Shown here one piece after another: positions 44,689 to 62,956 of a stretch of 64,000 bases of DNA. Position 1 is the first letter of the stretch. Each line of letters begins with the position of its first letter. The DNA is from Desulfobacteraceae bacterium (GTDB lineage Bacteria > Desulfobacterota > Desulfobacteria > Desulfobacterales > Desulfobacteraceae): contig JAAELK010000256.1 in assembly GCA_024226935.1 (NCBI GenBank), positions 1 to 64,000 of the forward strand, in the 5' to 3' direction. The position numbers and the translations under genes are program-made. A model generated the notes under the pieces. The model did not search any database. It saw only the letters and a list, made by a program, of their open reading frames with translations, and had not been told where the DNA came from.

Positions 44689-45381
44689 ATGTGTATGGCT
44701 TTGCCGTCGGTATTGATGCCTGGAAAGGAATGGATTAGCCAGTTGAGTCTGAAAAATAAAATAATAGTAATTGTGTTTTTAAGGGCCCCGGAAATAGGGA
44801 GGGTAAAGACTCGTCTTGCCCGGGATTTAGGGGATGAAAAAACTCTGGTTCTCTACAAAAAATTTGTTCAAACAACTTTGTCGGCCGTTGAAAAATCAGG
44901 CATGGATCACAGAATCTGTTTTTTCCCGGCCCATGGGCAGAGTCTGGTGGAGGACTGGCTTGGGAAGGATCATATTTATATGTTCCAGGCAGGGGATGAT
45001 TTGGGATATCGTATGAGCAATGCTTTGTCTTTCGTATTTGGTCAGGGAGCTCAAAAAGCCATTTTGATCGGCACTGATATCCCGGATATCAGTGCCGATC
45101 ATCTTTTGGAAGCCCAATCCCGGCTTAATGAAAAAGATGTGGTTATAGGCCCCAGTCTCGACGGGGGATATTGGCTCATCGGATTTCAACGCAATCGGTT
45201 TTGCCTCGACCTTTTTTCCCAGATTGACTGGGGAACTGATTCTGTGTTTTCAACCACCATTGAAAAATGTAAAGTTGCCGGTCTTTCCACAGGTATTTTA
45301 CCGACTCTGCAGGATATCGATACCCTGGAGGATCTTCAAAGTTTTCAAAAAAATAATCCCCTATTTGATTTTAATCCATAA
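44689..45381 (+). CDS. TIGR04282-type glycosyltransferase (arsenosugar-associated, DUF2064)
   Basis: A 230-residue soluble glycosyltransferase-A fold protein. Signature segments are FLRAPEIGRVKTRLAR (the nucleotide-sugar loop), IGTDIPDISADHL and GPSLDGGYWLIGF (the DGGY motif). The family is found next to TIGR04283 glycosyltransferases in arsenosugar clusters; here such a partner lies 3 kb away in convergent orientation, with a hybrid kinase between. No ArsM or ArsS gene is seen, so the substrate is not certain. Confidence 0.85.
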   Translation: MCMALPSVLMPGKEWISQLSLKNKIIVIVFLRAPEIGRVKTRLARDLGDEKTLVLYKKFVQTTLSAVEKSGMDHRICFFPAHGQSLVEDWLGKDHIYMFQAGDDLGYRMSNALSFVFGQGAQKAILIGTDIPDISADHLLEAQSRLNEKDVVIGPSLDGGYWLIGFQRNRFCLDLFSQIDWGTDSVFSTTIEKCKVAGLSTGILPTLQDIDTLEDLQSFQKNNPLFDFNP

Positions 45382-45660: not shown

Positions 45661-48429
45661 ATGAAGGATCGAATCTATTTCTTTTTGATTATGTTCTCTT
45701 GGACAATGGTCATCCTCTTTTCTTTGATTTCAAATATTCGTACGATGAATGATAGTAATTTCCAATTGGTTAGTAATGTTGGCAAGGCCTTTTTTAAGGA
45801 GATAGAAACCACCAGATCGTGGAATGCAATGCATGGGGGAGTATATGTATTAATAACTGAAAAGACAAAGCCAAATCCCTATTTAAAAATACCAAACCGG
45901 GATATCGTTTCAAAAGAGAAGGGGCTCAAGTTAACTAAAATAAATCCTGCCTTTATGACGCGACAAATTGCACAGATTGCAAAAAAAGAAAACAATATCC
46001 AATTTCATATCACAAGTTTAAAGCCTATCAGGCCGGCAAATAAAGCAGATGAGTGGGAAAAAAAGGCTTTGAATATATTCAAAGATGGTAAAAAAAGTGT
46101 AACCGATTTTATTGAAGAAGATGCCGTATACCGATATATGGCACCATTGTTTGTAAAAAAAGGTTGTTTACAATGCCATGCCAAACAGGGGTACAAAATT
46201 GGTGATATTCGGGGAGGGATAAGTGTGACTATCCCGGCTAAACCATATCTTGATGCCATCAAATATTCAAAAAACAAGTTGATTATAGTTCATTTGGTAT
46301 TGTATCTAATCGGATTGTTTGGCCTGTATTTTTTTATGAGATTTCGTGATCGGCAGATGATTATTTTAAATAATCGCAATATGGAATTAATGGATGAAGT
46401 GGCACATCGAAAGAAAATTGAGAATCAATTGAGAAAAATGAAGATTGTGGCTGAATCCGCCAACCAGGCAAAGAGTGAATTTCTTGCTAATATGAGTCAT
46501 GAAATCAGAACCCCAATGAATGGTATTATCGGCATGTCTTCTTTACTTTTAGAGACTCAACTTGATGATGAACAGTTAAACTATACCAGGAGAATAGCAA
46601 GGAGTGCCGATGCCTTATTAAGGGTTGTTAATGATATTTTGGATTATTCTAAGATCGAAGCCGGGAAACTGGAACTTGAGATTATTGATTTTAATATAAG
46701 AACAACTATTGAAGATGTTGCCGATGTACTTTCAATCATTGCATTTGATAAAGGGTTGGAGCTTGTATGCCTGATTAATCATGATCTTCCCACCCAGGTT
46801 CAGGGAGATCCAGTGAGGTTACGTCAAATACTTATGAATCTGATTGGAAATGCAATTAAGTTTACCCACACCGGTGAAGTTGTGATCCGTGCTTTTTTGG
46901 AAAAAGAAGAGCAATCAAGTGTAACGGTCCGGTTTGAAATACGCGATACCGGTATTGGAATTCCCAAGGATCGTATGGATCGGTTATTTAAATCATTTTC
47001 CCAGGTTGATGGCAGCACAACTCGTAAATATGGTGGTACGGGATTGGGCTTGGCAATATCCGTGCAACTTTGTGAAATGATGGATGGTAAGATCGGTGTG
47101 GAGAGTGAGGAAGGTTACGGTACAACTTTCCGGTTTACCTCGGTTTTTAAAAAGCAGACCCGGGGGATTGAAAGCTCAATGGCTTTACCGGAAGATATTT
47201 GTTCAAAACGAATACTGATAGTTGATGATAATGAAACAAACAGATTCTTGTTATCACAACTATTAAAAAGATGGGGGTGTCGATTTGAAAAAGCGTCGGG
47301 AGGGCAGGAGGCCCTGGAAAAACTTCGTATAGCTGTAAAAGAGAATGACTTATATCATATAGCCATTTTGGATATGCAGATGCCGGGAATGGATGGAGAG
47401 ACTTTGGGACGTAAGATCAAAGCTGATCCTGATATTTCGGAAACTATACTGGTTATGTTGACCTCAATGGGAATGAGGGGTGATGCCAAGCGAGCAAAGG
47501 ATATAGGTTTTGCGGCATATCTTACAAAGCCTGTAAAGCAATCCCAGTTTTTTGACAGCCTTTGCCTGGTCTTGGGTAGGAAAAACGATGATAGAGATCC
47601 GGTGTCGGATTCTATTGTTACTAAATATTTTATGACCGATTTTTCAAAAGATAAAATTAGGGTACTGGTTGTCGATGACGATGAAATGAATCGGGCGGTG
47701 GCTTCCACCATGTTAAGAAAAATTGGTGCAAGTGTGGTTGTTGCGGAGAATGGCCGGCAAGCGATTGAAGTTATCGAAAAAAATCAGTTTGATATCGTTT
47801 TAATGGATGGGCAAATGCCTGTGATGGATGGTCTTGAAGCGACCAGGGAAATCAGGAAAAGGGAAAAAGAAAAAAATCAAGATCCAATACATATAATAGC
47901 ATTGACAGCCCACGCCATGGAGGGTGATAAAGAAAAATTTATCGGGGCCGGGATGGATGATTATATTACTAAACCTGTAAAACAAGAGGTCTTATTTGGA
48001 AAAATTAGTAATTACATTGGAAAAAATGAAGGTGTTCCAATTGGGAAAAAAGTCCCGATAGTATTAAGGGCAGATGGTTTGAAGGATTTTTCAATGCCTC
48101 CGGTAGATATGGAAGATCTTTTGGGTATCATGGATAATGATATGGTTTTGTTGAAAAGGTGTTTTGATGACTATATTAAAAATTATAGGATATTGCTTAG
48201 TAATATAAAAAAATCCCTTGATGAAAAAAATGCTTCCGAACTTGAAAAAACCGCCCATAGATTTAAGGGTATGCTTACTTACTTGTCGGCTGGAAACTGT
48301 ATTGATATTGTTGATCAATTGGAGCAAATGGGTAAGAACAATAAAATGGACGGCGCAGACGAAATATATGAAGCTTTAAAGAGAGAAAGTGAAAAAATCA
48401 GTGTTTTTGTGGGTGACTTTAAAGGATAA
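45661..48429 (+). CDS. Haem-binding DUF3365 hybrid histidine kinase
   Basis: A 922-residue membrane sensor with helices at about 7-26 and 205-228. The periplasmic part between them is a DUF3365 (Tll0287-like) domain with a c-type haem site CLQCH at 169-173, so the signal is probably redox or a gas ligand. The order then is HisKA (His280, [11 protein letters not shown]), HATPase ([10 protein letters not shown]), receiver 1 (Asp571, [12 protein letters not shown]), receiver 2 (Asp716, [13 protein letters not shown]) and an HPt domain (His866, AHRFKGML). A complete phosphorelay on one chain is thus possible. GGAGGTAGA gives a strong start. It ends just before the convergent glycosyltransferase gene. 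Confidence 0.92.
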
Positions 48430-48432: not shown

Positions 48433-49143
48433 TTAATAATATTTTACCAAAACCTTGGGGGGTATCCCAAGAATATACAGACAAATCAGTACCCAGTTTC
48501 TGAAAGTGGTGAATAAAATTCCCTGGTCTTTCCATCGTCTTGCAGAGGTGGAAATGGAATGGGGTAAAAATATGGGTTTAATAGCATGCTTTTTTAATTT
48601 CGACATGATACCCACATCTTCCATGATGGGTATATCCGGGAATCCATTGATTTTATCAAATAATTGCCGGGACATAAAAATACCTTGGTCACCATAGGCA
48701 ATTTTTGTGAGTCGTGAACGGGCGGAGGCAACCTTTTCAATTATCCGGAAGACTTTTTTTCCGGAATTAATGTGAAGATCAAAGGCTCCGCAAAAAAGGG
48801 GATCAATATGGTTTTGCCATGTTTTTATCATCAACTCCACCCCCCTTTGATCGATCCTGGTATCGGCATGGAGGAAAAAAAATAGTTCTCCCACAGCAGC
48901 TTTAGCTCCTTTATTTAACTGGATACCCCGGCCTTTAGGGGAGGGTATCGGTTTGATCAAGGGCAGATGTGAGAGGCTTTTATCGGCCTCAAGATGGGTC
49001 AGGGTTGAGTGGCTGGGTTCTCCATCGGAGACAATAATTTCAAAGGGAAGGGGGATTTTCAAATTCAAAAGACTCTGAATGGTTGTAGATATAATGGCCG
49101 ATTCCCTGTACACAGGAATGATGATGGATAATTTTATTTTCAT
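48433..49143 (-). CDS. TIGR04283-type family 2 glycosyltransferase (arsenosugar-associated)
   Basis: A 236-residue GT-A glycosyltransferase. The N-terminal strand MKIKLSIIIPVYRES, the DG pair (SDGEPSH), the DxD-type FLHADTRID and the C-terminal EDVGIMSKLKK segment fit the TIGR04283 family, whose members sit in arsenosugar loci next to TIGR04282. I start it at ATG 49143 because the family begins there; the sequence upstream in the same frame is non-conserved and is the part duplicated 8.4 kb away. Its usual upstream neighbour seems to have been the histidine kinase now at 57692. Confidence 0.85.
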   Translation of the reverse strand: MKIKLSIIIPVYRESAIISTTIQSLLNLKIPLPFEIIVSDGEPSHSTLTHLEADKSLSHLPLIKPIPSPKGRGIQLNKGAKAAVGELFFFLHADTRIDQRGVELMIKTWQNHIDPLFCGAFDLHINSGKKVFRIIEKVASARSRLTKIAYGDQGIFMSRQLFDKINGFPDIPIMEDVGIMSKLKKHAIKPIFLPHSISTSARRWKDQGILFTTFRNWVLICLYILGIPPKVLVKYY

Positions 49144-49187
49144 GGGAAAATTCGTATCATAAAATAGTAAAAATGGATAGGGTATCA
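49101..49187. repeat. 87-bp direct repeat, left copy (glycosyltransferase 5' end)
   Basis: The same 87 bp, with three base differences, recurs at 57594-57680. This copy includes the first 14 codons of the intact glycosyltransferase and 44 bp before its ATG. The two copies bound an 8.4-kb block. Comparison of the outer flanks suggests the ancestral junction was histidine kinase end, 55-bp spacer, glycosyltransferase start. Confidence 0.9.
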
Positions 49188-49291
49188 CCGACAATAAAAA
49201 ATCTAAAAAATATGTATGGAATGAAATATGCGCAAGCCTCGGTATGGGGACAACCCACACGGGGTGGTGATTTCATACAATCAGCAATGCT

Positions 49292-50695
49292 TTAGAAATA
49301 GAATTTAAATTCAACCCCTGCCCTGTTTTCATTTCTGTAATTCCACAAAAAACTATCCTCATTATTTATGTTGAAAATAGTATAATTCACCGTTAACTGA
49401 AGATCATCAGAAAAGCTGTATACAAGTTCTACCTGGTGAAATGAATTTTTTTCCTGAAACTGATAAAAATATATATACTGGAACTCTAATGTTTCATTGA
49501 GAAACGACTTTAAATACTGAAAATATCCTCCTGTATTATCCTGTTCAACACCATATAAACCTTCCGAATAATCAAAGATGTGCCGATTTGTAATTTCAAA
49601 ATTCAGGATATATCTTCCGTTTGCATCGTACTCGATTCCGATTGCAGTGTCTATTAAATCACTCTCTTTTCCAATGAACTGGTTATTTGCGTTTACCGAC
49701 TGAAGGGAAAATCCTTTTTTGTAAGAGGCATCCAGCTTATAAAGAAAGCTTCCTGACGTGTAGTTCAGACCAATTCCATAAAAACTGTATCTGCCATAAT
49801 TATTTTTATATTCATTCCCTTTCTGAAACTCCAATACACCGGCATTTTGCAAAAGAGATGCGGTCATAAGTGAAATATCAAACTTTCCATATGTTTTTTT
49901 CCACTTTAGCCCCGCTTCCCTATCGGAAAAGTTTCTGGATTCATCAGTGATATTCAAATCAGGATAGTCTACATAGTATCTTGTTCCCTGATCAGGAGTA
50001 TTGTTAACTTCAGGTTTGAAAAGTACAAAGAAAAGAGTATCTCCGTAGTCTGAATATATATCAAGGGATGTTATGTACTGCCCCATCCTTGAATCCTCAA
50101 GATCTATAAACACAAACTCCTCTTCATTCCTTGGGGATACAACATCATTTATTACATCACCATCTGTCTCTCCCCAGACAATTATCTGCTTGCCTGCCCT
50201 TAGTTTAAAACTTTCAAAACCTGCCTGGAGATAAAACTCTCGTATTTCGGCTTTATAGTAGAGATTTTTATTGTCTGCTTTTGCAACGTGATCATTTTCG
50301 AAAAATTGAGTTACTTTGCCGTCAAACCTTACAAAAAATATATCAGAAAGAGTTTTTTCCAACTCACCCCTCAGATAAGATCTGTTATCAATTACTTCAT
50401 TATCTGGTTCCTTAGTTCCATAGGACAGTTTATGGGAAACGCAGAACGTAGAGTCAGGCCATAGGTGAAATTGATCGTCTGAATTGTCGGTGATTTTATC
50501 ATAATTATTTATTTGGGGGTCATATTCAAAGTCTTCTTCTTCTTCTTCATCGAAAGAGTCTTCATCGTTTTCATTATCGAAGCTTCTTATCTGTTTTGTG
50601 TTCGTATTTTCAGGGTCATTTTGTGCAAATGCATTTCCACAGATTAAAATAATTAAAATGACATATATTAGATTCTTTATTTTTATAAACTTCAA
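49292..50695 (-). CDS. DUF1302-like outer-membrane beta-barrel protein
   Basis: A 467-residue exported protein with a signal peptide (cleavage near AFA/Q) and a very acidic segment after it (about 40-55, DEEEEEDF). Short aromatic beta strands run through the whole chain and it ends in phenylalanine, as outer-membrane barrels do. The segment LRAGKQIIVWGETDGDVINDV fits DUF1302 (GxQxxxWGE). DUF1302 proteins sit with MMPL/RND pumps and LolA-like proteins in lipid or hydrophobic-solute gene sets. The start is TTG 50695, as no ATG lies upstream of the signal peptide and a stop codon immediately precedes it. Confidence 0.75.
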   Translation of the reverse strand: MKFIKIKNLIYVILIILICGNAFAQNDPENTNTKQIRSFDNENDEDSFDEEEEEDFEYDPQINNYDKITDNSDDQFHLWPDSTFCVSHKLSYGTKEPDNEVIDNRSYLRGELEKTLSDIFFVRFDGKVTQFFENDHVAKADNKNLYYKAEIREFYLQAGFESFKLRAGKQIIVWGETDGDVINDVVSPRNEEEFVFIDLEDSRMGQYITSLDIYSDYGDTLFFVLFKPEVNNTPDQGTRYYVDYPDLNITDESRNFSDREAGLKWKKTYGKFDISLMTASLLQNAGVLEFQKGNEYKNNYGRYSFYGIGLNYTSGSFLYKLDASYKKGFSLQSVNANNQFIGKESDLIDTAIGIEYDANGRYILNFEITNRHIFDYSEGLYGVEQDNTGGYFQYLKSFLNETLEFQYIYFYQFQEKNSFHQVELVYSFSDDLQLTVNYTIFNINNEDSFLWNYRNENRAGVEFKFYF

Positions 50696-50962
50696 TTACT
50701 TTACCCTATCTTAGATCTATGCTTGATGCTTACATTTTTTTTCAGTGGTGATTCTTTCATTAAATGGATGTTAATTTACTAGTATTCATGAGACCAATTT
50801 TATTGGGGATACTATATCTCAATCACTGATCCCCGCGGGAAGTACAACCTGTTATCAACTAATTAGTGGCTGACCGAATAGCATAAAACAGACCAAAGTT
50901 TGGCCTTCTGTCTTGGTCTTTGTCTGGGATAGGCTCTGACAAGGTGCCACCGGAGGATCCAT

Positions 50963-51829
50963 TCACATAATCGTGTTCTGATATTCCTTAAGTTTTCTTT
51001 CCCGGAAGCCTTTATCTGTCATGGTTCTCTGTGTTAGATAACTATCTTCAACAGGCCTGTTTAAGCTAATTTTTTCATAAACCATTATAGTTCTTCTTTT
51101 TGCGATAATATTGTTAACTACTATTTTCCGTGGAACAAGGATTCCTTCAATTACTTCGATATTGCTGTAGTAAATTTTTTTAAACTTCTTTCCATTTCGA
51201 TTGAACAGCACAATTTTAAGGATTAGATCTCGTTTTTTATCTACCCACATCATCTCACGGCTGTAGTTACTTTTTATAGCTTTTCTTAAAACCGGCGTTG
51301 CTTCAATAACCCAGCAATCATTATTTTTGTATTGTTCATCCCCAAGAATTTTATATGTATAATCATCAATATTGTAGGATTCCATATCCTCATAATTAAA
51401 TTCCGAGCCGAAGAAACTACCTGTTTTTGGTTCTGAATCGTTCCCCGCAACAAGTCTTTTTACTTTTCCAAGGGCTGTCAGGTACATCCACTGGTCAGTG
51501 TCTTTTCCAACCTCTTCGTAGTCGTACTGCAAAAAGCTGATGCCCCGGTCACGTTTTGGTTCAAGAATGATTGAAATACTTTTGTGGTCTTTTTCCTTTG
51601 GGCCATAATCTTTTTTGATATAATCCATGATCTTAACCCTTGGTTTTTCAGCGGGTACATTTTTTCCATCTTTTTTTATGTACCTGTAGGTTGTCAGGCT
51701 AATTCTGGATATGGCTGTTTTACCATCATCCCTATTATCAACCCTTCTCATAATGCCTTTTGCACTTTGTCCATAACTTATTGCTGCTGATAGTATTAAT
51801 AATGCCATGATATAAATAATCTTTTTCAT
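50963..51829 (-). CDS. LolA-like outer-membrane lipoprotein-sorting protein
   Basis: A 288-residue exported protein with a signal peptide (MKKIIYIMALLILSAAISYG). The rest is the beta-rich LolA-like half-barrel of the outer-membrane lipoprotein-sorting family: KRDRGISFLQYDY, the KVKRLVAGNDS segment, and MMWVDKKRDLILKIVLFN with the following KKIYYSNIEVIEGI. Such proteins carry lipids or lipophilic compounds across the periplasm. It lies between the MMPL/RND exporter and the porin on the same strand. GGGAGAG stands as ribosome site, just after a long hairpin. Confidence 0.8.
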   Translation of the reverse strand: MKKIIYIMALLILSAAISYGQSAKGIMRRVDNRDDGKTAISRISLTTYRYIKKDGKNVPAEKPRVKIMDYIKKDYGPKEKDHKSISIILEPKRDRGISFLQYDYEEVGKDTDQWMYLTALGKVKRLVAGNDSEPKTGSFFGSEFNYEDMESYNIDDYTYKILGDEQYKNNDCWVIEATPVLRKAIKSNYSREMMWVDKKRDLILKIVLFNRNGKKFKKIYYSNIEVIEGILVPRKIVVNNIIAKRRTIMVYEKISLNRPVEDSYLTQRTMTDKGFRERKLKEYQNTIM

Positions 51830-51843
51830 TTTATCTCTCCCAG

Positions 51844-51892
51844 GGGGCTCCCGTTTGTCCAGATTTCAAAAATCTGGACAAACGGGAGCCCC
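51844..51892 (-). repeat. Perfect 23-bp inverted repeat in the RND-LolA spacer
   Basis: The left arm (51844-51866) and right arm (51870-51892) are perfect complements over 23 bases, GC-rich at the base, with a 3-base loop. It lies 1 bp after the RND stop and just before the LolA-like gene's ribosome site. No T-tract follows on the minus strand, so it is not a classic terminator; it could stabilise or process the mRNA. Confidence 0.9.
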
Positions 51893-51893
51893 A

Positions 51894-54443
51894 TTAATAA
51901 TTTGTTGCTATTGCATGATCTGATTTTACTGGGGCTTCATTAAAGTCTACTTCGAAGAATACACACAATGCAGGAAGCAGGTATATATCAGCAATAAATG
52001 CTGTAAGAATTGCTATTGCTGAAAATATCCCAAAGTGACTTAATCCGTTATGAAATGACAGAAAGAACATTGAAAAACCTGAAGCAAGAATAATTGAAGT
52101 AAAACAAATTGCCTGCCCTGCCTCTCTTATTGAATTTACAACAGCCTTTTTGATATCTGCGTATTTTTCCATTTCAAGTTTGTAGTGAGTTAAAAAATGG
52201 ATCGTATCGTCAACAGCAAGTCCGATGATTACCGGTGCAATAAGAAGGGTGTCCATATCAAGCGGAATATCAAGGAAACCCATAATTCCAAAGGTTGTTA
52301 GTATTGGGAAAACATTGGGAATAATTGCAATGGCACCAGCCTTGAAATTACTGAAAACAAGAAACAGAATCACTGAAATTACAAGGAGACTTAACCCAAA
52401 ACTTTTAATCTGAGACCAGCTTATATAATCAAGCATGATTGCTATAAGTGCGTTGTTTCCTGTCAATATTATTTCACACCCAGGATATTTCTCTTTTAAG
52501 CCGGAGAAATTTATATCAATGTAGGTTTGTACATTCTCCTGAAAGGCAAGTGCTTGGATTGAGCCTGCATTTATAGTGTTAAGACCTATCCTTGCCCGGC
52601 TGTAGTCATCGGTTACAAGCCTCTTTCTGTCTTCATTATTGGCATTCTCGAAAAGAAACAGTGTCTGAGAAAGCATTTCCGGATCTTGAGGAATAGCATA
52701 AAATTTTTCATCACTGTTATTGAGAGCCTTGTATGAATCCTTAACAACATTTACAAGAGAAGCCGTTTTCACAACTTCAAGCCATTCAAACGATAGTAAA
52801 TAATCCTGAAGTTTTTCCATTTCGTTTAATACTGTAGGATCTTTAAGTGCATTTTCTTTTTTGAAATTGATTGAAATTTCCATATTACCGCTTCCGGCCA
52901 TATGTTCATTAACAATGTTATATGAGTGTTTTATGGGAAGACCTTCTTTAAAAACCTCAATATCATTGGAATCAATCCGTAAGTTCATAAGACCTGCAAA
53001 GAAAAATATTCCAAGAACAGTAAATACTATAATTACAGTCCTTGGCTTTTGGGAGCCGGTATTTTCTGTTTTTCTTATAAGCCTTTGAATCAGAAGCTTT
53101 TTTTTATTTGTTTTTTTAGGAATCGGATTCCATAAATCAAGCATCAGCGGCATCAAAAAAACCGTTATAATAAATGCCGCAAAAACACCTAGGGAACTGA
53201 ATATTCCAAATACGGCGATTGGCTTGATTGGAACAAGTGATAGAGACATCAGGCCGATTGCGGTCGTTGTACTTGTTAAAAAGCAGGCAACCCCTGATTT
53301 TCTCATTACAGATTTCAGGGCCTTGTCATGGTTATAACCTTGGTTTCTGAAAAAGAGATATCCAGACATTATATGAACTGAATCTGCAACCCCCACAGCA
53401 AGAATCATAAATATTATAATCTGGAACATGATAGACATATGAATCCCGCTCCAGCCTATTATTCCCGTAGCCCATAAGAGAGTTATAACAACAATGCTTA
53501 CCGGCCAGACAACCGCGCTAAACGATCTGAAAAGAAACCAGAGCATTACAATAATAATGAGTAAAACCAGCCCCATTATTTTACCCAAATCTTTCATTAC
53601 AGCATCACCAAAAAAATCCATCATAACCGGTGTACCAACAGCATGAAATTCAAGGGCATCAGTATACTCTTCTTTCTGCATTAATTTTCTTAGCGCAGAA
53701 ACCAGATAGGGATATTCAGCTATTTCTGTTTCCTTGAATGTCAGGTGATCGGTTAAATTGTTTGTTGTGCTATAATATAGACCTTCAGAAAACTCTTCTT
53801 CATCTTCATCAAATAATCCGGATTGATTTTTAGGTTCAGTTTTTGAATCTTCATAAACAACCTCACTGTTAAAATCAGTCCTTAAAAGAATGCCCCCATA
53901 TTTGGAATCTTTAGATAAATAAAGATATGGATAATCAGGATGATTCAATGCCTTATTTCGAAGTGCTTCCCTTTCGACTTCATTTTCAGGAATATTATCC
54001 CCAATAAGGCTTCGGGAATAGAGCGTGTCCTTTGAGGCTTCAAGAAATTTGAGATTGATAAGCGACTTGACTTCAACAATATGATCAAAGGGCGATTTAT
54101 CAGTTGGTTTTAAATTTAATCTGTAGTTTGTAATTTCATCATAAAAGCCCTTTAAAGCCTTTACAGAATTGTCAGAGAAAATATCCCCGTCTTTTGCTTT
54201 ATATACGACGTAAATATATTCATCTCCGCCAAAGACCGTTCTGAATTTGTCGTACTCTTTTTTAACCGGATCATCTTTTTTGAAAAATGAGTCAAGGGAA
54301 TTATCCATTATAATTTTGCTTGCCTCTGCCCCAAGCACGACTGTTATCGCAATAAATATTGCCAGTACCATCCACTTTCTTTTCCTGAGTTTTCCAGGAA
54401 GGCTTTCAAAAAAACCATTTAATCCCTTAACGAATTTTCCCAT
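51894..54443 (-). CDS. MMPL/RND-family exporter
   Basis: An 849-residue inner-membrane protein with two repeats of a large periplasmic loop followed by a group of helices, the MMPL/HpnN pattern of RND proteins. Recognisable stretches are VGVADSVHIMSGY and IGLAVDDTIHFLTHY, the paired charged-helix motifs of the two halves that handle the proton. MMPL relatives move lipids or hopanoids to the outer membrane. AGGAG five bases before the ATG supports the start. It forms an operon with the LolA-like and DUF1302-like genes. Confidence 0.88.
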   Translation of the reverse strand: MGKFVKGLNGFFESLPGKLRKRKWMVLAIFIAITVVLGAEASKIIMDNSLDSFFKKDDPVKKEYDKFRTVFGGDEYIYVVYKAKDGDIFSDNSVKALKGFYDEITNYRLNLKPTDKSPFDHIVEVKSLINLKFLEASKDTLYSRSLIGDNIPENEVEREALRNKALNHPDYPYLYLSKDSKYGGILLRTDFNSEVVYEDSKTEPKNQSGLFDEDEEEFSEGLYYSTTNNLTDHLTFKETEIAEYPYLVSALRKLMQKEEYTDALEFHAVGTPVMMDFFGDAVMKDLGKIMGLVLLIIIVMLWFLFRSFSAVVWPVSIVVITLLWATGIIGWSGIHMSIMFQIIIFMILAVGVADSVHIMSGYLFFRNQGYNHDKALKSVMRKSGVACFLTSTTTAIGLMSLSLVPIKPIAVFGIFSSLGVFAAFIITVFLMPLMLDLWNPIPKKTNKKKLLIQRLIRKTENTGSQKPRTVIIVFTVLGIFFFAGLMNLRIDSNDIEVFKEGLPIKHSYNIVNEHMAGSGNMEISINFKKENALKDPTVLNEMEKLQDYLLSFEWLEVVKTASLVNVVKDSYKALNNSDEKFYAIPQDPEMLSQTLFLFENANNEDRKRLVTDDYSRARIGLNTINAGSIQALAFQENVQTYIDINFSGLKEKYPGCEIILTGNNALIAIMLDYISWSQIKSFGLSLLVISVILFLVFSNFKAGAIAIIPNVFPILTTFGIMGFLDIPLDMDTLLIAPVIIGLAVDDTIHFLTHYKLEMEKYADIKKAVVNSIREAGQAICFTSIILASGFSMFFLSFHNGLSHFGIFSAIAILTAFIADIYLLPALCVFFEVDFNEAPVKSDHAIATNY

Positions 54444-54444
54444 T

Positions 54445-54648
54445 TTAGCTCCTCATTTCAATCTGGTTCAGGTCCATTAATGATAGATCCAGATCCCGAA
54501 CCTTGTTGATGATTCCATACAGTTCAGACAGGTCTTTTATTTTCACCATAATTGCTGTTGCCGGCTTGTTAGCCGAATCGAATCGCCTGGATATTAAAGA
54601 GTCATTAAAATATGATTCCCATCCGTCGGACAGATGTCCTGTATGCAA
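54445..54648 (-). CDS. Possible small protein ahead of the exporter gene
   Basis: A frame of at most 67 codons ends one base before the exporter start. The longest version begins at TTG 54648 without a ribosome site. The C-terminal part (DLSELYGIINKVRDLDLSLM) looks like a natural helix-strand segment of an ACT-like kind. It may be a remnant of a longer gene or a coupled leader peptide. Low confidence. Confidence 0.3.
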   Translation of the reverse strand: MHTGHLSDGWESYFNDSLISRRFDSANKPATAIMVKIKDLSELYGIINKVRDLDLSLMDLNQIEMRS

Positions 54649-54785
54649 ATTCTGTATGTTTTGAATTCTTTATCCATGGCTTATTTTTAGAGGAATGAGG
54701 AAATTAATCACCACCTAAAAGTATGGAATTGAGTATGGAATTAATCTTATATTGAGTGCATAGCTTTATCTTATTTGTTTTTGGG

Positions 54786-54816
54786 TGGGAGTATGATAAT
54801 TTATAGTATTCTCCCA
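54786..54816. promoter_or_regulatory. Inverted repeat between regulator and exporter genes
   Basis: TGGGAG (54786-54791) and CTCCCA (54811-54816) form a dyad with a further partly paired AT interior. It lies in the 283-bp gap between the MalT-like regulator stop and the small frame before the exporter, so it might be the regulator's target. There is no T-tract for a terminator. Confidence 0.35.
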
Positions 54817-54931
54817 TAAAAAAGGCACAAACAAGAAGTCATTATGAACTTGTTACAGATATTTCTGGTTATCTGCCTAGCAGGATTCGGAACAATCACT
54901 GCCTATGACGGAGAAAAAGTACCTTGCGTCA

Positions 54932-57550
54932 TCATATCAGCTCATATTTCTCAGCAAACGAAACCGCCTCGCCGCGCCTTTTAACATTGAGTTTTGCATA
55001 AATACGACTTGAATACCACTTGACGGTGTTTATTGAAAGACAAAGGGTATCTGCGATTTCGTTGTTTGAGTTTCCTTTTTTCATAAGTTCCAAAATTTCA
55101 ATTTCACGTTCATTAAAGTTCTCTTTAAACTCATTTATGATTATCGATTTTCTTTCACTAATTTTAGTTTTTGGTTCTTTTGTATGGGGGGGGGCAATGT
55201 ATGGATTCAGGTATTCCGGTAGGAGTTTTCTCTTTAAACACTCTTTAAATAATGCCTGCATATTTTCACCTTCATCAATATACAACCTTACATGCCCTTC
55301 GTTTTCAGAAATCTGAAAGGCTTTTTCAAGAATGTTTAAAGATCTATCAAGATCATCATCAAGATACCAGGCAATGGCTTTCAGAATATAGCATTCAATG
55401 AGCCGCTCTAACCTTTTTACTGGTAAGTCTTCACTAATCATAAAATCAGTAATTTCATGAACTCTTTTTGTATATTTATTGAAAATACAATATCTGCAAA
55501 AGCTTAAGAATTCATGGTGTTTATAATATGGAATTTCTTTTTCAGAAAAATCTCCCATCTGTTTCAATAATTTTTTTGTAAATGAAATATTTCCTTTAGC
55601 AAGTTCAATTCTTACCTGATAAGCAACAGACATAAACTCACCCCAGGAAGAGCTGGCCTTAGCGGCCTCAACAGAAAGTGTAATTGCTTTATCTGCTTCA
55701 ACAAAATTGTTATCTGCTGCAAGGATTTTTGCATATACCAGATTACCAAGGAATATAAATTCGAAAAATTCTTTATTTCTGGCAAGGTACAATCCTTTTC
55801 GGCAATATTTTAGTGCTTGGGCTATTTGGTTTCTCTCTCTTAAAATCTCTGCTTTAATAATGTAGAGATAACTGTATTCAACACGAAGTTCTTCCCCGTA
55901 TTTTAACTTTTCTTCTTCAAGTGATTTATCTACAACAGATAAAGCCCTGCTAAGCTCTCCTTTTTCAACTAAAGTATCAGCATAATTAATCGCTGTAAAA
56001 GCGTTTATATTATCATCATTCATTAACTTAGAGCAGTAATTCAACACTGGCATCAAGTCACCTGAATACCTTAGAGCAAGGAAAAGTATAAGTTCTGACA
56101 TTTCTTTAACATGAGCATGGGTATCAGATAATAACTCTATAGCATTTTTAATTTCTTCAATCGATTTTTTAAACTCCCCGGTCTGATAGAAATACTGGTA
56201 TCCCTTCACTGTGGAAATAAAACCGGAAACAACTTTATTTGCTTTAAATATATCCTGATAAAGCAAGTCACTTGATTCAAAGTCTCCTGCCATAACTTTC
56301 ATAAAAACAGAGTAACAGCATAACACCGGTTTTTTATTAACTATAACATCTGGAAGTCTTTCAAGTGAGTTTTTCAAAATCGTCCCTCCAGACTCACTAA
56401 AAAGATCCGGTGCTATTATGGAAAGGTATTCAGCCGCCTGATCGAAATTTTTTGCCAGGATACAATGGTTGAATGCTTCTGTTTCGTACCCGTTTTCTTT
56501 CAGCCATTTAAATGCTTTATTGTGGAGGTTTTTTATTTCATTATTTTTTAATTCTTTCAGATTTTTAAAAAGAAATTCTCTGAACAGATGATGATATCGA
56601 AACCACTGTCTTTGGTTATCAAGGGGAATCAGAAACAGATTGTTCTGCTCCATGTAGTTGAAAATTCTTATGCTGTCAGAATTACCAGTCACAAACTCAC
56701 AAATTTCAGGACAAAATCTTTCAAAAATGGCAATCTTTAGCATAAAATCACAAACTTCATCTGGCAGACCTGATAATACTTCTTCTACCAGATAATCAAT
56801 TATATACCTGTCGCTTCCTGTGAACTTATCAATAAACATCCTCAGATCGGCCTGATCTTTTATTGATAGGACAGCGAGCTTAAGACCTGCTATCCATCCT
56901 TCAGTTTTGTCTCTCAGGGATATGATGTCACTATTGTTTAAACCAAGATGATGAATTTCATTAAGAAGGGTTTTTGTCTCATCGGCGTTAAAACGTAATT
57001 GAGCTGCACCTATCTCACAAAGATGACCCGAGAGCCGGAATTTTGAAAGGGACAGATTCGGAGTTTCCCTGCTGGAAATTATCAGCCTCATAGTTGAGGG
57101 TAGATGGTCAAGTAAAAATTCTATACCTCTGAGAATAAGGCTGTCTGTAATAACGTGGTAGTCATCCAAAACAAGAGTAAATTCAGTTCCATCTTCCGTA
57201 ATTTCGTTAATCATACCGATAAGGATATTTTCAATGGAAGATATTCCTGAGGATTTGATCTGTTCGAGGCAATTTTTATCGCAAATATTTAAGTTCTGAG
57301 ATACAGCTGTTATCAAATAACTCCAGAAAAGAGCCGGAGTATTTTCACTGGGTTCAAGTGACACCCATGCAACTCTTACGTTACAGCTTTCAACCCATTC
57401 ACTCAATAATGTGGTTTTACCAAAACCCGCAGGGGCTGATATTATTACAATAGAGCTACCCTCATTTATCAGACGGCTTATTCTGTTTCTGGAAATGGAT
57501 GAGTCAGCTTTGAATTCCGGAATATGGAATTTGGTTTGAAGAAGTTGCAT
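54932..57550 (-). CDS. MalT-type ATP-dependent LuxR-family regulator
   Basis: An 872-residue signal-transduction ATPase of the STAND class. The N-terminal P-loop is SAPAGFGKTT (39-46), with FTLVLDDYH as Walker B and a winged helix after. The middle is a long tetratricopeptide-like helical region. The C-terminal LuxR helix-turn-helix is FNEREIEILELMKKGNSNNE to CLSINTVKWYSSRIYAKL (about 805-860). The class uses ATP and an inducer to oligomerise and activate nearby genes; the MMPL/LolA-like/DUF1302 operon just downstream is the natural target. The inducer is not known. Confidence 0.9.
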   Translation of the reverse strand: MQLLQTKFHIPEFKADSSISRNRISRLINEGSSIVIISAPAGFGKTTLLSEWVESCNVRVAWVSLEPSENTPALFWSYLITAVSQNLNICDKNCLEQIKSSGISSIENILIGMINEITEDGTEFTLVLDDYHVITDSLILRGIEFLLDHLPSTMRLIISSRETPNLSLSKFRLSGHLCEIGAAQLRFNADETKTLLNEIHHLGLNNSDIISLRDKTEGWIAGLKLAVLSIKDQADLRMFIDKFTGSDRYIIDYLVEEVLSGLPDEVCDFMLKIAIFERFCPEICEFVTGNSDSIRIFNYMEQNNLFLIPLDNQRQWFRYHHLFREFLFKNLKELKNNEIKNLHNKAFKWLKENGYETEAFNHCILAKNFDQAAEYLSIIAPDLFSESGGTILKNSLERLPDVIVNKKPVLCCYSVFMKVMAGDFESSDLLYQDIFKANKVVSGFISTVKGYQYFYQTGEFKKSIEEIKNAIELLSDTHAHVKEMSELILFLALRYSGDLMPVLNYCSKLMNDDNINAFTAINYADTLVEKGELSRALSVVDKSLEEEKLKYGEELRVEYSYLYIIKAEILRERNQIAQALKYCRKGLYLARNKEFFEFIFLGNLVYAKILAADNNFVEADKAITLSVEAAKASSSWGEFMSVAYQVRIELAKGNISFTKKLLKQMGDFSEKEIPYYKHHEFLSFCRYCIFNKYTKRVHEITDFMISEDLPVKRLERLIECYILKAIAWYLDDDLDRSLNILEKAFQISENEGHVRLYIDEGENMQALFKECLKRKLLPEYLNPYIAPPHTKEPKTKISERKSIIINEFKENFNEREIEILELMKKGNSNNEIADTLCLSINTVKWYSSRIYAKLNVKRRGEAVSFAEKYELI

Positions 57551-57593
57551 ATTTGTATTGGCCTGTCCTTATTAACCAGATCTGTTTCATTAA

Positions 57594-57636
57594 ATTCCCT
57601 GTACACAGGAATGATGAAGGATAATTTTCTTTTCAT
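57594..57636 (-). pseudogene. Truncated 5' remnant of the TIGR04283 glycosyltransferase gene
   Basis: From ATG 57636 the frame reads MKRKLSFIIPVYRE, fourteen codons matching the intact gene's MKIKLSIIIPVYRE, and then diverges completely (FNETD). The rest of the gene is missing. The remnant stands directly behind the histidine kinase gene, where the intact gene would have stood before insertion of the 8.4-kb block. Confidence 0.85.
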
Positions 57637-57680
57637 GGGAAAATTCGTATCATAAAATAGTAAAAATGGACAGGGTATCA
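57594..57680. repeat. 87-bp direct repeat, right copy
   Basis: The right copy of the repeat whose left copy is at 49101-49187, with three mismatches (two change codons of the glycosyltransferase start). Past its inner edge (57593 and below) the sequence no longer matches the glycosyltransferase. Its outer edge is 12 bp before the histidine kinase stop. Confidence 0.9.
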
Positions 57681-57691: not shown

Positions 57692-58840
57692 CTAAACAGG
57701 CAGGGTAAAACTGAAGACGGTTCCCGATCCAACTTGGCTTTCAACTTCAATTTTTCCATTGTGGGCTTCAACGATTTTTTTTACAATGGCAAGGCCTAGG
57801 CCGGTGCTGGTTTCATCCCCAGTGGGTTGTGCGCTTAGTCGTTGAAAAGTATCAAATAATTTGGGTTTTTCCGCTTCTGGAATACCCGGTCCCTGGTCTT
57901 TGACACTGATTTTAATTTTATTTTTAAAATGTTTTGCATAAATATAAACATTTGATTTGTGTGGTGAAAATTTAACGGCATTGCTGAGCAAATTGTCTAT
58001 AACCTGTGGTATTCGTTGGGCATCAAATTTAAACCTTGGAATATCTTGCAAATCCATATGGATGATGATGCCTTTTTTTTCTGCCATCACCCGGCTGAGC
58101 ATCACCCGTTGGCGGATAATGGGTATTATAGATGCCAGGTTCAAATTCAGTTCAAGTTTGCCACTTTCAATAACCGACACATCAAGCAGGTTATTTAAAA
58201 GGGCCAGCATATCCTCTGTGGCGCTGAAAATCATGGATAAAAATTCCCTTTGTTCTTCCGATATGTCCCCGCATTCTTCTTCAAGAAGAAGCTCGCTGAA
58301 CCCATTGATTCCAGATAATGGACCTCTAAGGTCATGGGCGGCAATGCCTATGAATTTGTTTTTTAACTGGTTGAGATCTTCAAGTTCCTTGTTTGATTTT
58401 TCAAGTTCTTTGTTCTTATTTTCAAGTTCTGCAATCAATTGGAGATTTTTTTCCTTTAGCCTGTGATTTTCCCATATCTGTTCGATGGCAATGGGGATAG
58501 TGTCCTGGATATTTTCATCCTTGATCAGATAATCATTGGCACCGGCCTTCATGGCATCTATGGCCACGGAAAATTCTTCATTTACCGTGAGAATAATGAT
58601 TGGAATCTGCGTCTTGTTCTCCCGCAGATGCTTGATCAGTTCAATGCCGTTCATCTTTGGCATATTCATATCTGAAAGGATCAGATCTGTCTTGCCGGAT
58701 GGATCAAGTTTTTCGATGGCATCAAGGCCGTCCCGGGCGTCGGACACACTATGACCAAGGGCCTCAAGAATTGAACTTAACAGCTTTCTTGCAAAGGGGT
58801 CATCATCGACAACAAGAATATTTAACTTCAGGGATGGCAT
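57692..58840 (-). CDS. REC-HisKA-HATPase histidine kinase
   Basis: A 382-residue soluble protein. The N-terminal receiver has Asp57 (LILSDMNMP) and an unusual IKDEN where the normal Lys-Pro would be. A coiled coil (about 125-160, rich in KELEKSN) leads to HisKA (His169, IAAHDLRGPLS) and HATPase (GPGIPEAEK, STGLGLAIV). A receiver-first kinase is probably controlled by the CheA-like protein encoded upstream in the same minus-strand set. Its N-terminal 150 residues are clearly paralogous to those of the REC-GGDEF protein two genes upstream. Confidence 0.92.
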   Translation of the reverse strand: MPSLKLNILVVDDDPFARKLLSSILEALGHSVSDARDGLDAIEKLDPSGKTDLILSDMNMPKMNGIELIKHLRENKTQIPIIILTVNEEFSVAIDAMKAGANDYLIKDENIQDTIPIAIEQIWENHRLKEKNLQLIAELENKNKELEKSNKELEDLNQLKNKFIGIAAHDLRGPLSGINGFSELLLEEECGDISEEQREFLSMIFSATEDMLALLNNLLDVSVIESGKLELNLNLASIIPIIRQRVMLSRVMAEKKGIIIHMDLQDIPRFKFDAQRIPQVIDNLLSNAVKFSPHKSNVYIYAKHFKNKIKISVKDQGPGIPEAEKPKLFDTFQRLSAQPTGDETSTGLGLAIVKKIVEAHNGKIEVESQVGSGTVFSFTLPV

Positions 58841-58879: not shown

Positions 58880-59659
58880 CTATTTGCTGGTTTTTTCTCC
58901 AAGTTTAGCTGTACACTCTTTTATGATTTCAAACTTTTCACGTTGCCGGTCCAGGATTTTTCCCGGTTCTTCGTTTTCTGGGCCTTCTTCAAAACAAAAC
59001 TTAAGCACACCCATGTACTCAAATTCATTTGACGTATATTGGTCCGTCATTTTTATAAGATGATCTTCAATCTCAAAACCACGTTCTTCGGTAATGCCAA
59101 GTTTTTTTCTTAGAAGCTTCAATAATTTTCTTTGATTTTCTGTGGTGCCGTCTTTTTGTAAATACAAATTAAACCCATCGGTGGACTCCGTTTCTTCCGG
59201 GCGGTTGGGTACACACTTTTTAATGCCTTTGCCTCCATGGTGCATCTGTTCAATTCTGGTTTGAATTTCTTTTGCTTTTTCCGGCTCGCAATGGGAATAA
59301 TAATTTAAAATTGTATCAACAATTTTCAAGGGTGAAAAGGGTTTGACAATATATCCCTGGATACCGAACTTTGCACAATCAATTATATCTTCCTTACTGT
59401 TCTTGCTGGTTTGAACAATGATGCAGGTCGTTTGATCGTTTATCTCTTCCCGGATCAATTTTAAGATTTGAAAACCGCTCATTATCGGAAGATTCATATC
59501 CAGTAAAATAAGATCCGGACCCCATTCTTTGTAAATGTCCAAGCCTGCCTTCCCGTCTGAAGCGAAACGCGTTTCAAAGATTTCTTTCTTAAGGCATTTC
59601 TTATACAGTCTTTGAATATTTGAATCGTCTTCAATAATTAAGGTTTTCAACAATTCCAT
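58880..59659 (-). CDS. Response regulator with unrecognised C-terminal domain
   Basis: A 259-residue protein. Residues 1-120 are a receiver with Asp54 (LILLDMNLPIMSG) and IVKPFSP. Residues about 130-259 are charged and helical (TENQRKLLKLLRKKLGITEE, NEFEYMGVLKFCFEEGPENE) and match no output domain I know; there is no helix-turn-helix or GGDEF. Part of the chemosensory-type set, 40 bp before the REC-kinase gene. GGAG precedes the ATG. Confidence 0.8.
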   Translation of the reverse strand: MELLKTLIIEDDSNIQRLYKKCLKKEIFETRFASDGKAGLDIYKEWGPDLILLDMNLPIMSGFQILKLIREEINDQTTCIIVQTSKNSKEDIIDCAKFGIQGYIVKPFSPLKIVDTILNYYSHCEPEKAKEIQTRIEQMHHGGKGIKKCVPNRPEETESTDGFNLYLQKDGTTENQRKLLKLLRKKLGITEERGFEIEDHLIKMTDQYTSNEFEYMGVLKFCFEEGPENEEPGKILDRQREKFEIIKECTAKLGEKTSK

Positions 59660-59705
59660 TCTTATGACTCCGGTTATTGTCTTTACAAAATTAAATAATG
59701 TTGTC

Positions 59706-60653
59706 CTAAATCATTCTGATGCAGTTCCTTCCTTCATCCTTGGCTTTATAAAGCGCCTTGTCCACAAGATCCAGCAAATAGGAGTATTTTATACTTTTGT
59801 GTGGAACCATACTGCCAATGCCAATGCTTATGGTAATATGATCCACCGCTTTGGAGGCTTTGTGTGGTATTCCAAGGGCTTCAACATTAAATTTTATCTT
59901 TTCAGCCACGTGCTTTGTGCCGTCTATTTTTGTATCCGGTAAGATAACCGTGAACTCTTCCCCGCCATAGCGGGCGATAAAGTCTGCAGGTCTGTTTATT
60001 GCGTTATTCATTGCCCGGGCTACCCGTTGAAGGCATTTATCTCCCTTTGGATGTCCATAGGTATCATTGTAGGATTTGAAAAAGTCAATATCTGCCATAA
60101 TCAGCCCGAAATGGGATTGGTTACGCCTGCAGTTTTTCCATTCCCGTTGTAAAACTTTTTCTAGATAATGCCGGTTGGGAATGGATGTCAGTCCGTCAAG
60201 GAGAGCCATCCGTTCCAGTTCTTTATTCTTTCGCTCAAGGTCCAGCAGTAATTGAATGTTTTGCTTTTTCAATCTTTGTTGTTCCATGGTCTGATCAATG
60301 GAAATCAAGAGGGTATCACCAATATTTTCATCTTTGATGATATAATCATCCGCCCCGTTTTTCAGGGCTTTGATTGCTATGGAAATTTCTTCGTTTGCAG
60401 TCAGAATAATGATAGGGATATCAATTTTAATGGTTTTGATCTGTTCGAGAAGCTCAAGGCCGTTCATCTCGGGCATGTCCATATCGGTGAGTATGAGATT
60501 TAAGCTTTTGTTTGAACCTAAATGATCCAGGGCATCTATTCCATTTATGGCAGTTTCCACTAAATAACCCCGGGCACTGAGAATTTCATATATTATCTCC
60601 CGAACCAAGGGGTCATCATCAACAACAAGAACTTTTAATCCATCGGTTTCCAT
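59706..60653 (-). CDS. REC-GGDEF diguanylate cyclase (WspR-like)
   Basis: A 315-residue response regulator that makes c-di-GMP. The receiver has Asp57 (LILTDMDMP) and the same IKDEN variant as the REC-kinase. A coiled coil (about 125-155) leads to the GGDEF domain; the active site is GGEEF at 230-234, with the inhibitory site RPAD at 221-224, so feedback inhibition is likely. The layout matches WspR, which is phosphorylated by a CheA-like kinase, and a CheA-REC gene stands directly upstream. GGGAGATAAATC precedes the ATG. Confidence 0.93.
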   Translation of the reverse strand: METDGLKVLVVDDDPLVREIIYEILSARGYLVETAINGIDALDHLGSNKSLNLILTDMDMPEMNGLELLEQIKTIKIDIPIIILTANEEISIAIKALKNGADDYIIKDENIGDTLLISIDQTMEQQRLKKQNIQLLLDLERKNKELERMALLDGLTSIPNRHYLEKVLQREWKNCRRNQSHFGLIMADIDFFKSYNDTYGHPKGDKCLQRVARAMNNAINRPADFIARYGGEEFTVILPDTKIDGTKHVAEKIKFNVEALGIPHKASKAVDHITISIGIGSMVPHKSIKYSYLLDLVDKALYKAKDEGRNCIRMI

Positions 60654-60708
60654 GATTTATCTCCCGATTATTTTGCAATTGATCCGGGTCTTATCCCCGG
60701 CTTTCTTT

Positions 60709-62955
60709 TTATTCTCCAATAAGATTCTGGATAGCCTTTAAAAGATTTCCCTGGTCAAATGTTGCTTTGGTAATGTAAGCATTGGCCCCGGCTTTAATTC
60801 CTTTTTTCCTGTTTTCCTCCCGGTCAAGGGAGGTCACCAAAATTACAGGAACATCTTTGTAATTTTCCATCCCGCGTAATTGTCGGGTTAATGAAAAACC
60901 GTCCATTCTCGGCATCTCCACATCTGTTATGATTAAATCATACTGGGTTTTGTTAAGGGCTTCTAGGGCTTCAATACCATCGCCTGCAAGGTCAACATGA
61001 TATCCATGGGACTCAATGATGTTTTTTTCAATTTCCCGGGTGGAGATGGAATCATCCACCACAAGAATCCGGCCCATTATTTTTTCCTTTGCATCCCTGC
61101 CCTGGGAACCGTGAATGACTTTGGCCTTTCTGATTGAGCGGATAATATTGGGCATATGAAGTACATTTATAATATCTGTTTTGCTCATTATGATAGCGCC
61201 GGCAACCCATGGATTGCCTTTTAGGTGCCGGGGCAAAGGCTTTATGATCATATCCTGCTCCTGATGTAAGCTGTTGATAATCAGGCCGGTGTATTCATCC
61301 TCAAACCGGACAACGAGAATCAGCAAATCATTTTCATTTGAAGAGCTGTTTTTTTTAAGTCCCAGAATTTTTCCCAGGTGAACCACAGGAATCATATGCT
61401 CACGCAGGCGGATCGCTTTTTTATCCCCCATTTGAATCAGGGCGTTATTGTCGATTCTGATGATCTCTTTTACCAGGGAGCTTGGAACGGCCAGGGGCAT
61501 ATCGGAAACAATAATCGGAAGGATACGCATAACCGCCAGGGTAAGGGGCAGTTTGATAAAAAAGAAAGTTCCTTTGCTATTCTCTGTTTTTACCTTTATG
61601 GATCCCTTGAGTTCATCGACAATATTTTTTCTGACCACATCCATGCCCACACCGCGCCCGGAAAGATCTGTGATTAACTGGCTTGTCGACAGGCCGGCAT
61701 GGAATATCAGGTTGATTGTTTCCGATTCCGTCATATTTTCAAGTTCCGGGGTGGTGTATAGTTTTTTTTCAAGGGCTTTTATTTTAACTTTTTCCACGGG
61801 AATACCTCTGCCGTCATCGCTGATGATAATCGACACGGTCTCCCCCTTATACCCGCCCTTTAAACCGATGGTCCCAACCCTGGATTTGCCTGCTTTTTGC
61901 CTTTCTTCCGGCGTTTCAATTCCGTGATCAATACAATTGCGGATCATATGAATCAATGGGGCCCCAAGTTTATCAATAATTTTTTTATCCAGTTCGGTTT
62001 CTCCCCCTTGAATATCGAAACGGATCTCTTTATTGAAGGATGCGGCCAGATCCCTGACTGTCCGCTTCAAGCTGGCAAAAATTGTGTTGAGCGGAAGCAT
62101 TCGCAGATTCAGAGATTGCATTTGCAGGTCATTGGTTAAAAGTTCCATGGTTGCTGTTTCTTGTCTTGCAATTGCACCCTGCTGCCGTATCTTGCGGTTT
62201 AAGAGGGTTGCAGCCTCTTTGGCCTTTTTGAAAGATTCTGTGCTTGGGTTGTTTTTTCGGCCTAACCCGGTGATCAGTTCCAGGGAGTGCTTTGCCCAGG
62301 TTTCGATGCTACGAATATTATCTATTTGCAGCTTTTGGCGGTTTTGGCTGTTGATAATTTCGCCCATAATTTTTATCAGGTTATCCAGTTTATCAGCCGG
62401 GATACTGATCAGGTTTGAATCAGCGGCCCCCCCGGGGATTATGACAGATTCCTCGGTTTTTTCTGTAACTATTTTTTGGGTAACGCTCTTTTTTGGGGAT
62501 TTGCTTTTTATTTCAGGCAACCTTGGGAGCGGGCTTTCGGTGGTCTCCACCCTATCCTCTTTGGATATATTATTTTTTGTAGCATTTTTCAGTTCTTCAC
62601 AGATTTCAATGCCGCAATCTTCAATTGGCTCACCGGCCGAAAGTTTGTCCAGCATCAGGGCAATGACATCAAACCCCTTAAACAACAGGTCTGATAATTT
62701 TTTTGACAATCTTATTTTTCCCTGTCGAAGGGAATCGAGAGCATCTTCAAGTTGGTGGGCCAGATCCCCCAGGGGGGTATATTTCATGAGTCGAGATGAA
62801 CCTTTGATCGTATGGGCGGCACGAAATATGGTATCCATCACTTCTGTGTTATCGGGCTGTTCTTCCAGTTCCAGAAGACTCTCATTGAGCCTTTCCACAT
62901 TTGCTTTTGTTTCCTGTACAAAACGGTCTATAAATTTGCTTGTGTCAAATACCAC
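60709..62955 (-). CDS. Hybrid CheA kinase with C-terminal receiver (WspE-like)
   Basis: A 748-residue chemosensory histidine kinase. The N-terminal HPt has His48 in RAAHTIKGSSR. Then come a linker, dimerisation and HATPase domains (HMIRNCIDHGIE, DDGRGIPV, GRGVGMDVV), a CheW-like domain, and a receiver with Asp678 (LIITDVEMPRMDG). CheA-REC fusions are typical of Wsp-like systems. The start is GTG 62955, preceded by GGGAGG, directly after the cheR-like stop. MCP, CheW and CheB parts would lie outside the window to the right, if present. Confidence 0.93.
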   Translation of the reverse strand: MVFDTSKFIDRFVQETKANVERLNESLLELEEQPDNTEVMDTIFRAAHTIKGSSRLMKYTPLGDLAHQLEDALDSLRQGKIRLSKKLSDLLFKGFDVIALMLDKLSAGEPIEDCGIEICEELKNATKNNISKEDRVETTESPLPRLPEIKSKSPKKSVTQKIVTEKTEESVIIPGGAADSNLISIPADKLDNLIKIMGEIINSQNRQKLQIDNIRSIETWAKHSLELITGLGRKNNPSTESFKKAKEAATLLNRKIRQQGAIARQETATMELLTNDLQMQSLNLRMLPLNTIFASLKRTVRDLAASFNKEIRFDIQGGETELDKKIIDKLGAPLIHMIRNCIDHGIETPEERQKAGKSRVGTIGLKGGYKGETVSIIISDDGRGIPVEKVKIKALEKKLYTTPELENMTESETINLIFHAGLSTSQLITDLSGRGVGMDVVRKNIVDELKGSIKVKTENSKGTFFFIKLPLTLAVMRILPIIVSDMPLAVPSSLVKEIIRIDNNALIQMGDKKAIRLREHMIPVVHLGKILGLKKNSSSNENDLLILVVRFEDEYTGLIINSLHQEQDMIIKPLPRHLKGNPWVAGAIIMSKTDIINVLHMPNIIRSIRKAKVIHGSQGRDAKEKIMGRILVVDDSISTREIEKNIIESHGYHVDLAGDGIEALEALNKTQYDLIITDVEMPRMDGFSLTRQLRGMENYKDVPVILVTSLDREENRKKGIKAGANAYITKATFDQGNLLKAIQNLIGE

Positions 62956-62956
62956 A

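Follow-up and report, generated by a model that had tools for sequence, protein, structure and literature searches.

The window, as we call the stretch of DNA analyzed here, comprises 64,000 nucleotides (positions 1 to 64,000, forward strand) of contig JAAELK010000256.1 from a bacterium of the Desulfobacteraceae, a family of sulfate reducers (assembly GCA_024226935.1), whose genome is available as 6.09 Mb in 590 contigs. Within it, an 8.4-kb block of four genes lies between two copies of an 87-bp direct repeat, with an intact glycosyltransferase gene on one side and a response-regulator/histidine-kinase gene on the other. For comparison, we used five sister genomes of the same genus (G001 to G005) and genomes from other genera of the family, G007 and G013 among them. 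The features of the locus are as follows.

44689 to 45381, plus strand: TIGR04282 glycosyltransferase-like gene (196.6 bits against a cutoff of 134), in the sister genomes the convergent partner of the target gene
48433 to 49143, minus strand: intact target gene, a glycosyltransferase of the TIGR04283 family (209.7 bits against a cutoff of 182)
49101 to 49187, minus strand: left copy of the repeat, spanning the leader of the intact glycosyltransferase gene and its first 14 codons
49188 to 49231, minus strand: probable native upstream DNA of the glycosyltransferase gene, with a collinear match to the upstream region in G004
49292 to 50695, minus strand: operon gene 4, porin-like protein (relatives in the same operon 43 to 55% identical)
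50963 to 51829, minus strand: operon gene 3, LolA-like protein (PF17131, 173.8 bits; DUF1329, 37.7 bits)
51894 to 54443, minus strand: operon gene 2, MMPL/RND transporter (PF03176, 113.1 bits)
54932 to 57550, minus strand: operon gene 1, MalT-type LuxR regulator (TPR_MalT, 93 bits; GerE, 55.4 bits)
57594 to 57680, minus strand: right repeat copy, leader and 14-codon glycosyltransferase fragment
57692 to 58840, minus strand: response-regulator/histidine-kinase protein (Pfam Response_reg, HisKA and HATPase_c) at the end of the chemosensory cluster
58880 to 64000, minus strand: in-window part of a lineage-specific chemosensory cluster, from its ORFs; the cluster continues to about position 68600 of the contig

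As the sequence-only reading of this DNA had reported, the two copies of the repeat are identical save for three positions. Direct comparison of 49101 to 49187 with 57594 to 57680 gave 84 identities in 87 positions, the differing sites being 49125/57618, 49136/57629 and 49178/57671, and outside both copies the similarity ends abruptly. The left copy is, as claimed, the start of the intact glycosyltransferase gene, 44 nt of leader being followed by 43 coding nucleotides (14 codons plus one further base; the ATG lies at 49143 on the minus strand), and the right copy holds the same gene start, broken off after 14 codons and one base. The distance from the right copy to the kinase stop codon (57692 to 57694) had been given as 12 bp and is in fact 11 bp; the companion figure, that removing the block and one repeat would leave 55 bp between the kinase and the glycosyltransferase ATG, was correct. 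At two of the three differing sites, the left-copy base is common to three of the four relatives, and the right-copy base occurs in no relative in one case and in G001 in the other; on this comparison, the right copy appears to carry the derived base at both sites. The right copy itself matches the start of the G005 glycosyltransferase gene at 86% over 63 bp.

A search of the window's own genome with the repeat returned two matches, which are these two copies (E ≤ 0.001; 40 of the 57 first-look candidates scored). Within-contig repeats were also surveyed in 31 contigs of this genome (601,927 bp, about one-tenth of the genome; at least 50 bp and at least 88% identity), and the others found were tandem or close arrays (within 1.7 kb), one palindrome and the members of one dispersed family, with no similar dispersed repeat pair in the 0.6 Mb surveyed. 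The search and the survey rule out that the repeat is a common genomic element, a doubt that had been raised at the outset. The own genome has a single occurrence of a 110-bp stretch around the left junction, which is absent from all seven other genomes searched. The intergenic DNA next to the repeats gave no support for a structure (z scores of −0.04 and −0.57), and promoter-like sites were at chance level (35 found, 37.5 expected).

The transporter encoded in the block scored below the curated cutoffs of the HpnN models (122.2 against 751.85 bits for TIGR03480 and 65.7 against 1100 bits for NF052374) and also matched HAE3 models, again below cutoff. The regulator reached 346.1 bits against a cutoff of 537 bits for the HTH-type regulator MalT (NF003420) and, by its domain make-up, is MalT-like and not MalT itself. 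The porin-like protein had no match in Pfam or NCBIfam; strands were present in its predicted structure, but the model was poor (mean pLDDT of 34.4), and it suggests the fourth product as a candidate outer-membrane barrel. We infer that, under the control of the regulator, the operon probably transports a hydrophobic substrate such as a lipid towards the outer membrane. A literature search on the regulator-MMPL-LolA-porin operon gave one paper, off topic by its title. The Pfam scan, which took in six proteins, including all four operon proteins, found no recombinase among them, and the remaining ORFs of at least 40 amino acids in the block are all 98 amino acids or shorter, in agreement with the earlier remark that the block carries no integrase or transposase.

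The block had also been suspected of being AT-richer than its flanks, and this was borne out by a GC content of 35.6% versus 43.3% for window positions 1 to 45000; the lowest equal-sized window of the contig not overlapping the block has 41.2%. Codon composition differs in the same way, third-position GC being 0.31 to 0.34 in the block genes versus 0.43 to 0.57 in the genes at 35975 to 45381. Composition alone is not decisive, because two other genes of the window (10288 to 11499 and 17105 to 17872) have a third-position GC as low as that of the block or lower.

In a protein search of 58 genomes, the best relatives of the transporter were found in G013 (70%) and G007 (69%). The best matches in G001 to G004 reached 26 to 31%, and G005 has a separate MMPL relative on contig C165 (56%). 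At the DNA level, the block matched 46 of 389 genomes drawn from the order (E ≤ 0.001), many of them by short stretches only, with no match in G001, G002 or G003 at that threshold. In Desulfocicer vacuolatum (G007) and Desulfoluna limicola, the four products are encoded in the same order, regulator-MMPL-LolA-porin, in a different chromosomal setting, and in D. vacuolatum the transporter and LolA-like parts are fused in one 1162-amino-acid ORF, unlike in the window. In G013, the regulator gene lies about 10 kb from the other three genes. The operon relatives in G007, G013 and D. limicola do not lie beside a TIGR04283 glycosyltransferase gene. No viral contig matched the peptide patterns of the regulator, and all 88 plasmid records that matched the transporter did so at less than 60% identity (22 to 26% among the 8 of 88 matches listed). 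Judged by its foreign composition, by its closest complete relatives in other genera and by a near-identical relic in G005, the block is a horizontally acquired foreign four-gene operon, as the sequence-only reading had suggested in likening the layout to an integration. As a separate observation, the interval between the MalT-type gene and the transporter gene in G013 (contig C15, about 257400 to 267470) contains a 456-amino-acid reductive-dehalogenase-like gene, a cytochrome-like gene and an efflux system, all labeled by eye.

At the end of G005 contig C154, the relic retains fragments of the regulator gene together with the last part of the LolA-like gene, everything else being missing. It begins where a phosphatase-like gene has its stop codon, within the regulator coding sequence, and stops at a sequence that four other G005 contigs also carry at their ends and that looks like a collapsed repeat. 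Over about 2.2 kb, contig C154 is 84% identical to G003 and 73% identical to G001 and G002 and therefore belongs to the genus. The DNA of the relic is 93% (483/519), 90% (97/108) and 91% (100/110) identical to the block, versus 74 to 81% for five vertically inherited stretches of 0.7 to 2.8 kb shared by the window's contig and G005 (one further stretch, of 195 bp, has 66%), and the operon therefore moved between lineages after the lineages had split. G005 has a further 209-bp copy (94%) of the 3′ end of the phosphatase-like gene next to the relic; this copy lies on contig C345 (about 4582 to 4793), where it is flanked by kinase-like and P-type-ATPase-like fragments (labels by eye).

It had been supposed that the block splits an old kinase-glycosyltransferase pair, and the related genomes speak against this. 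Four of the five sister genomes have a close glycosyltransferase (70 to 75%), G003 being without it, and in these four (G001, G002, G004 and G005) the TIGR04282 gene adjoins the TIGR04283 gene, with only matches of at least 60 bits counted. On the upstream side, the older neighbors in G001, G002 and G005 are a divergent 131-amino-acid gene, a peptidyl-prolyl isomerase and an HD-GYP-type regulator (names by eye). The 131-amino-acid gene directly adjoins the glycosyltransferase gene in G002, separated from it by 185 bp; a 639-amino-acid gene is interposed before it in G001 and a radical-SAM-like gene in G005, and G004 has two kinase-like genes upstream, followed by a piece of the 131-amino-acid gene at the contig end. 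In the window's contig, this gene is found at about 68935, beyond the chemosensory cluster and 20 kb from the glycosyltransferase gene, so that the operon and the 11-kb chemosensory cluster now occupy a formerly short intergenic region. With the 131-amino-acid gene as the next older upstream gene in three sisters, and with those older neighbors lying 20 kb away in the window's contig, we ruled out the kinase and glycosyltransferase genes as an old pair. The sister-genome matches listed for the kinase itself are 30 to 38% identical, and the CheA of the cluster (CheA models match 60709 to 62955) has best matches of 28 to 30% in four sister genomes and no match at E ≤ 1e-60 in G001. Different extra genes occupy the interval upstream of the glycosyltransferase gene in four of the five genomes that have the gene, the window's contig included, and this interval may be a spot that gains genes often. 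On the other side, between the two convergent glycosyltransferase genes that are adjacent in four sisters, the window carries a 922-amino-acid sensor-kinase-like gene (45661 to 48429; 37.7% GC), with no direct repeat found at its edges.

The DNA just outside the left repeat copy (49188 to 49231) aligns with DNA upstream of the G004 glycosyltransferase gene, the distances from the leader being nearly equal (44 and 47 nt). Of 300 shuffles, none reached the score of this alignment; less strikingly, 26 of 11,244 genomic windows did, as did 12 of 45,994 controls when collinearity to within 5 nt was also required. In an anchored 60-nt test, the score was reached by 9 of 4000 controls for G004 (107 for G002, 390 for G001 and 1735 for G005) and by 15 for the sum, and on the kinase side the sum was reached by 1993 of 4000. 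The local tests gave no signal for the other three relatives (33 to 52 of 300 shuffles; 1395 to 2219 of 11,244 windows). The upstream regions of the sisters align poorly even among themselves (best, 42 of 1000), so that the region is weakly conserved and the evidence for a native context is moderate. On that evidence, which comes from one relative, G004, the left copy probably keeps its native upstream DNA and would then not be an attachment site, because native-like glycosyltransferase upstream DNA lies outside it. Since 49188 to 49231 looks native, the left edge of the block probably falls between 49232 and the porin stop at 49291. The block had been delimited as 49188 to 57593, of which the left limit probably does not hold.

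We favor, with a probability of about one-half, the reading that the block arrived by host recombination, as a circularized fragment that entered through one homologous crossover. The donor arrangement, the circle and the crossover that we infer would be as follows. A fragment from a related strain would have contained the operon together with the native upstream DNA of the glycosyltransferase gene, its leader and its first 14 codons, and end joining would have made this fragment circular. The kinase gene would have adjoined the glycosyltransferase gene in the immediate ancestor, and the circle would have crossed over once with this resident junction at the 87 bp of homology, giving the order kinase, 87-bp homology, operon, native upstream DNA, 87-bp homology and intact glycosyltransferase. 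One crossover with such a circle would explain both the observed gene order and the two limits of the repeat. The layout agrees with one circle joined to the chromosome at the 87-bp homology, in that a sharp-ended stretch is shared, the DNA outside each copy differs and the left flank is native by a moderate test.

This single-crossover reading is supported because the repeat is unique and sharp ended, the composition is foreign, the distribution is patchy, a relic exists in G005 and the kinase flank is young, and because the left flank matches native upstream DNA of G004 whereas the right flank does not. Counting against it, neither a donor strain nor an operon-free strain nor a circle was seen, and the homology would measure only 87 bp. 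The three differences between the copies can be strain differences or later decay.

There is a laboratory parallel in Escherichia coli, where 56 of 60 candidate one-ended integration clones gave a product diagnostic of partial target duplication, the duplications in 14 sequenced clones being 109 to 950 bp long (PMC3240628). The authors' reading is one crossover with a circle missing part of the homology, most likely after the molecule had been cut, degraded and re-closed, and such entry was seen beside homology-facilitated illegitimate recombination (PMC3240628). Their case shares with ours a short partial duplication of the target, one intact copy and the lack of an integrase; it differs in concerning a laboratory plasmid and 109 to 950 bp, whereas we are dealing with a natural operon and 87 bp, as read from sequence. 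Natural transformation of Streptococcus pneumoniae with partial chromosome duplication is similar in that incoming DNA yields new joints and duplicated segments, there as tandem duplications of about 100 to 900 kb between repeats and here as a gene-start fragment (PMC3784515). Overall, the block is a real foreign operon and the repeat is most likely a recombination scar, ordinary in kind and useful as an example. The locus would be a natural candidate for a whole operon joining the chromosome without an integrase and leaving a gene-end repeat that is easily mistaken for an attachment site. A scar can be told from an attachment site by setting the DNA that immediately flanks each repeat copy against sister genomes, a test applicable to other integrase-free islands.

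A possible, though doubtful, alternative to the single crossover is a trimmed tandem duplication, in which the operon would first have lain upstream of the glycosyltransferase gene, a duplication would have joined codon 14 to the operon start, and the chemosensory insertion would then have removed the first operon copy and left the gene fragment. This sequence of events reaches the same end state with no second strain required, the chemosensory cluster is also lineage specific and would account for where the repeat stops on the kinase side, and the two derived-looking sites in the right copy are as for a fragment decaying afterwards. However, three separate events are needed, and there is no trace of a second operon copy, the own genome having one full-length match to the block. 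A further, unlikely reading is that the operon is mobile although it lacks its own recombinase, traveling between chromosomes as a circle that host recombination would form and re-insert at captured gene ends; the copies in the window and in G005 would then represent two separate insertions, and excision through the 87-bp repeat would still be possible.

We consider it improbable that the block was inserted with a long duplication of its target, or that an insertion at the joint was templated, as in template-switching repair; neither route would involve a second allele or a circle. The 209-bp phosphatase-end copy in G005 shows that copied gene ends occur at joints elsewhere in the genus, but the 0.6 Mb of the own genome surveyed holds no similar dispersed pair. 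To our knowledge, target duplications of 87 bp have been described for no transposase.

Some integrative elements target the 5′ end of a gene. The locus resembles them in that its direct repeats are long, nearly identical and contain a gene end, and in that the gene beside one of them is intact. It is nevertheless very improbable that a recombinase supplied in trans integrated the block site-specifically, using as attachment site the 87 bp where the glycosyltransferase gene begins, given that no recombinase was found among the scanned proteins of the block, that the G005 relic sits at a different locus, beside the phosphatase-like gene, that the left flank looks native and that none of the four sister genomes has a second glycosyltransferase start near the gene (8 to 20 kb searched per genome). 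The sequence-only reading had likened the layout to an integration that rebuilds the 5′ end of its target; neither a dedicated integrative element nor a dedicated integrase found support in these tests, and the left flank resembles native upstream DNA. It is just as improbable that the assembly joined two strain variants at the repeat, the very place where variants would be confused in so fragmented a genome, since the copies differ at three sites and the codon-14/operon joint and the kinase-side joint share no sequence that an assembler could confuse.

Elsewhere in the window, a dispersed repeat of about 92 nt occurs on the plus strand at 11645 to 11736 and 16866 to 16958. It has at least 40 matches in the own genome at 87 to 100% identity (40 of 86 candidates scored), none in G001 to G004 at E ≤ 0.001, two in G005 and short partial matches in G007, G014 and G030. 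Without a match to any Rfam family, it folds into two hairpins (z of about −3) and appears to be a structured repeat, or an element resembling a small RNA, that has expanded recently.
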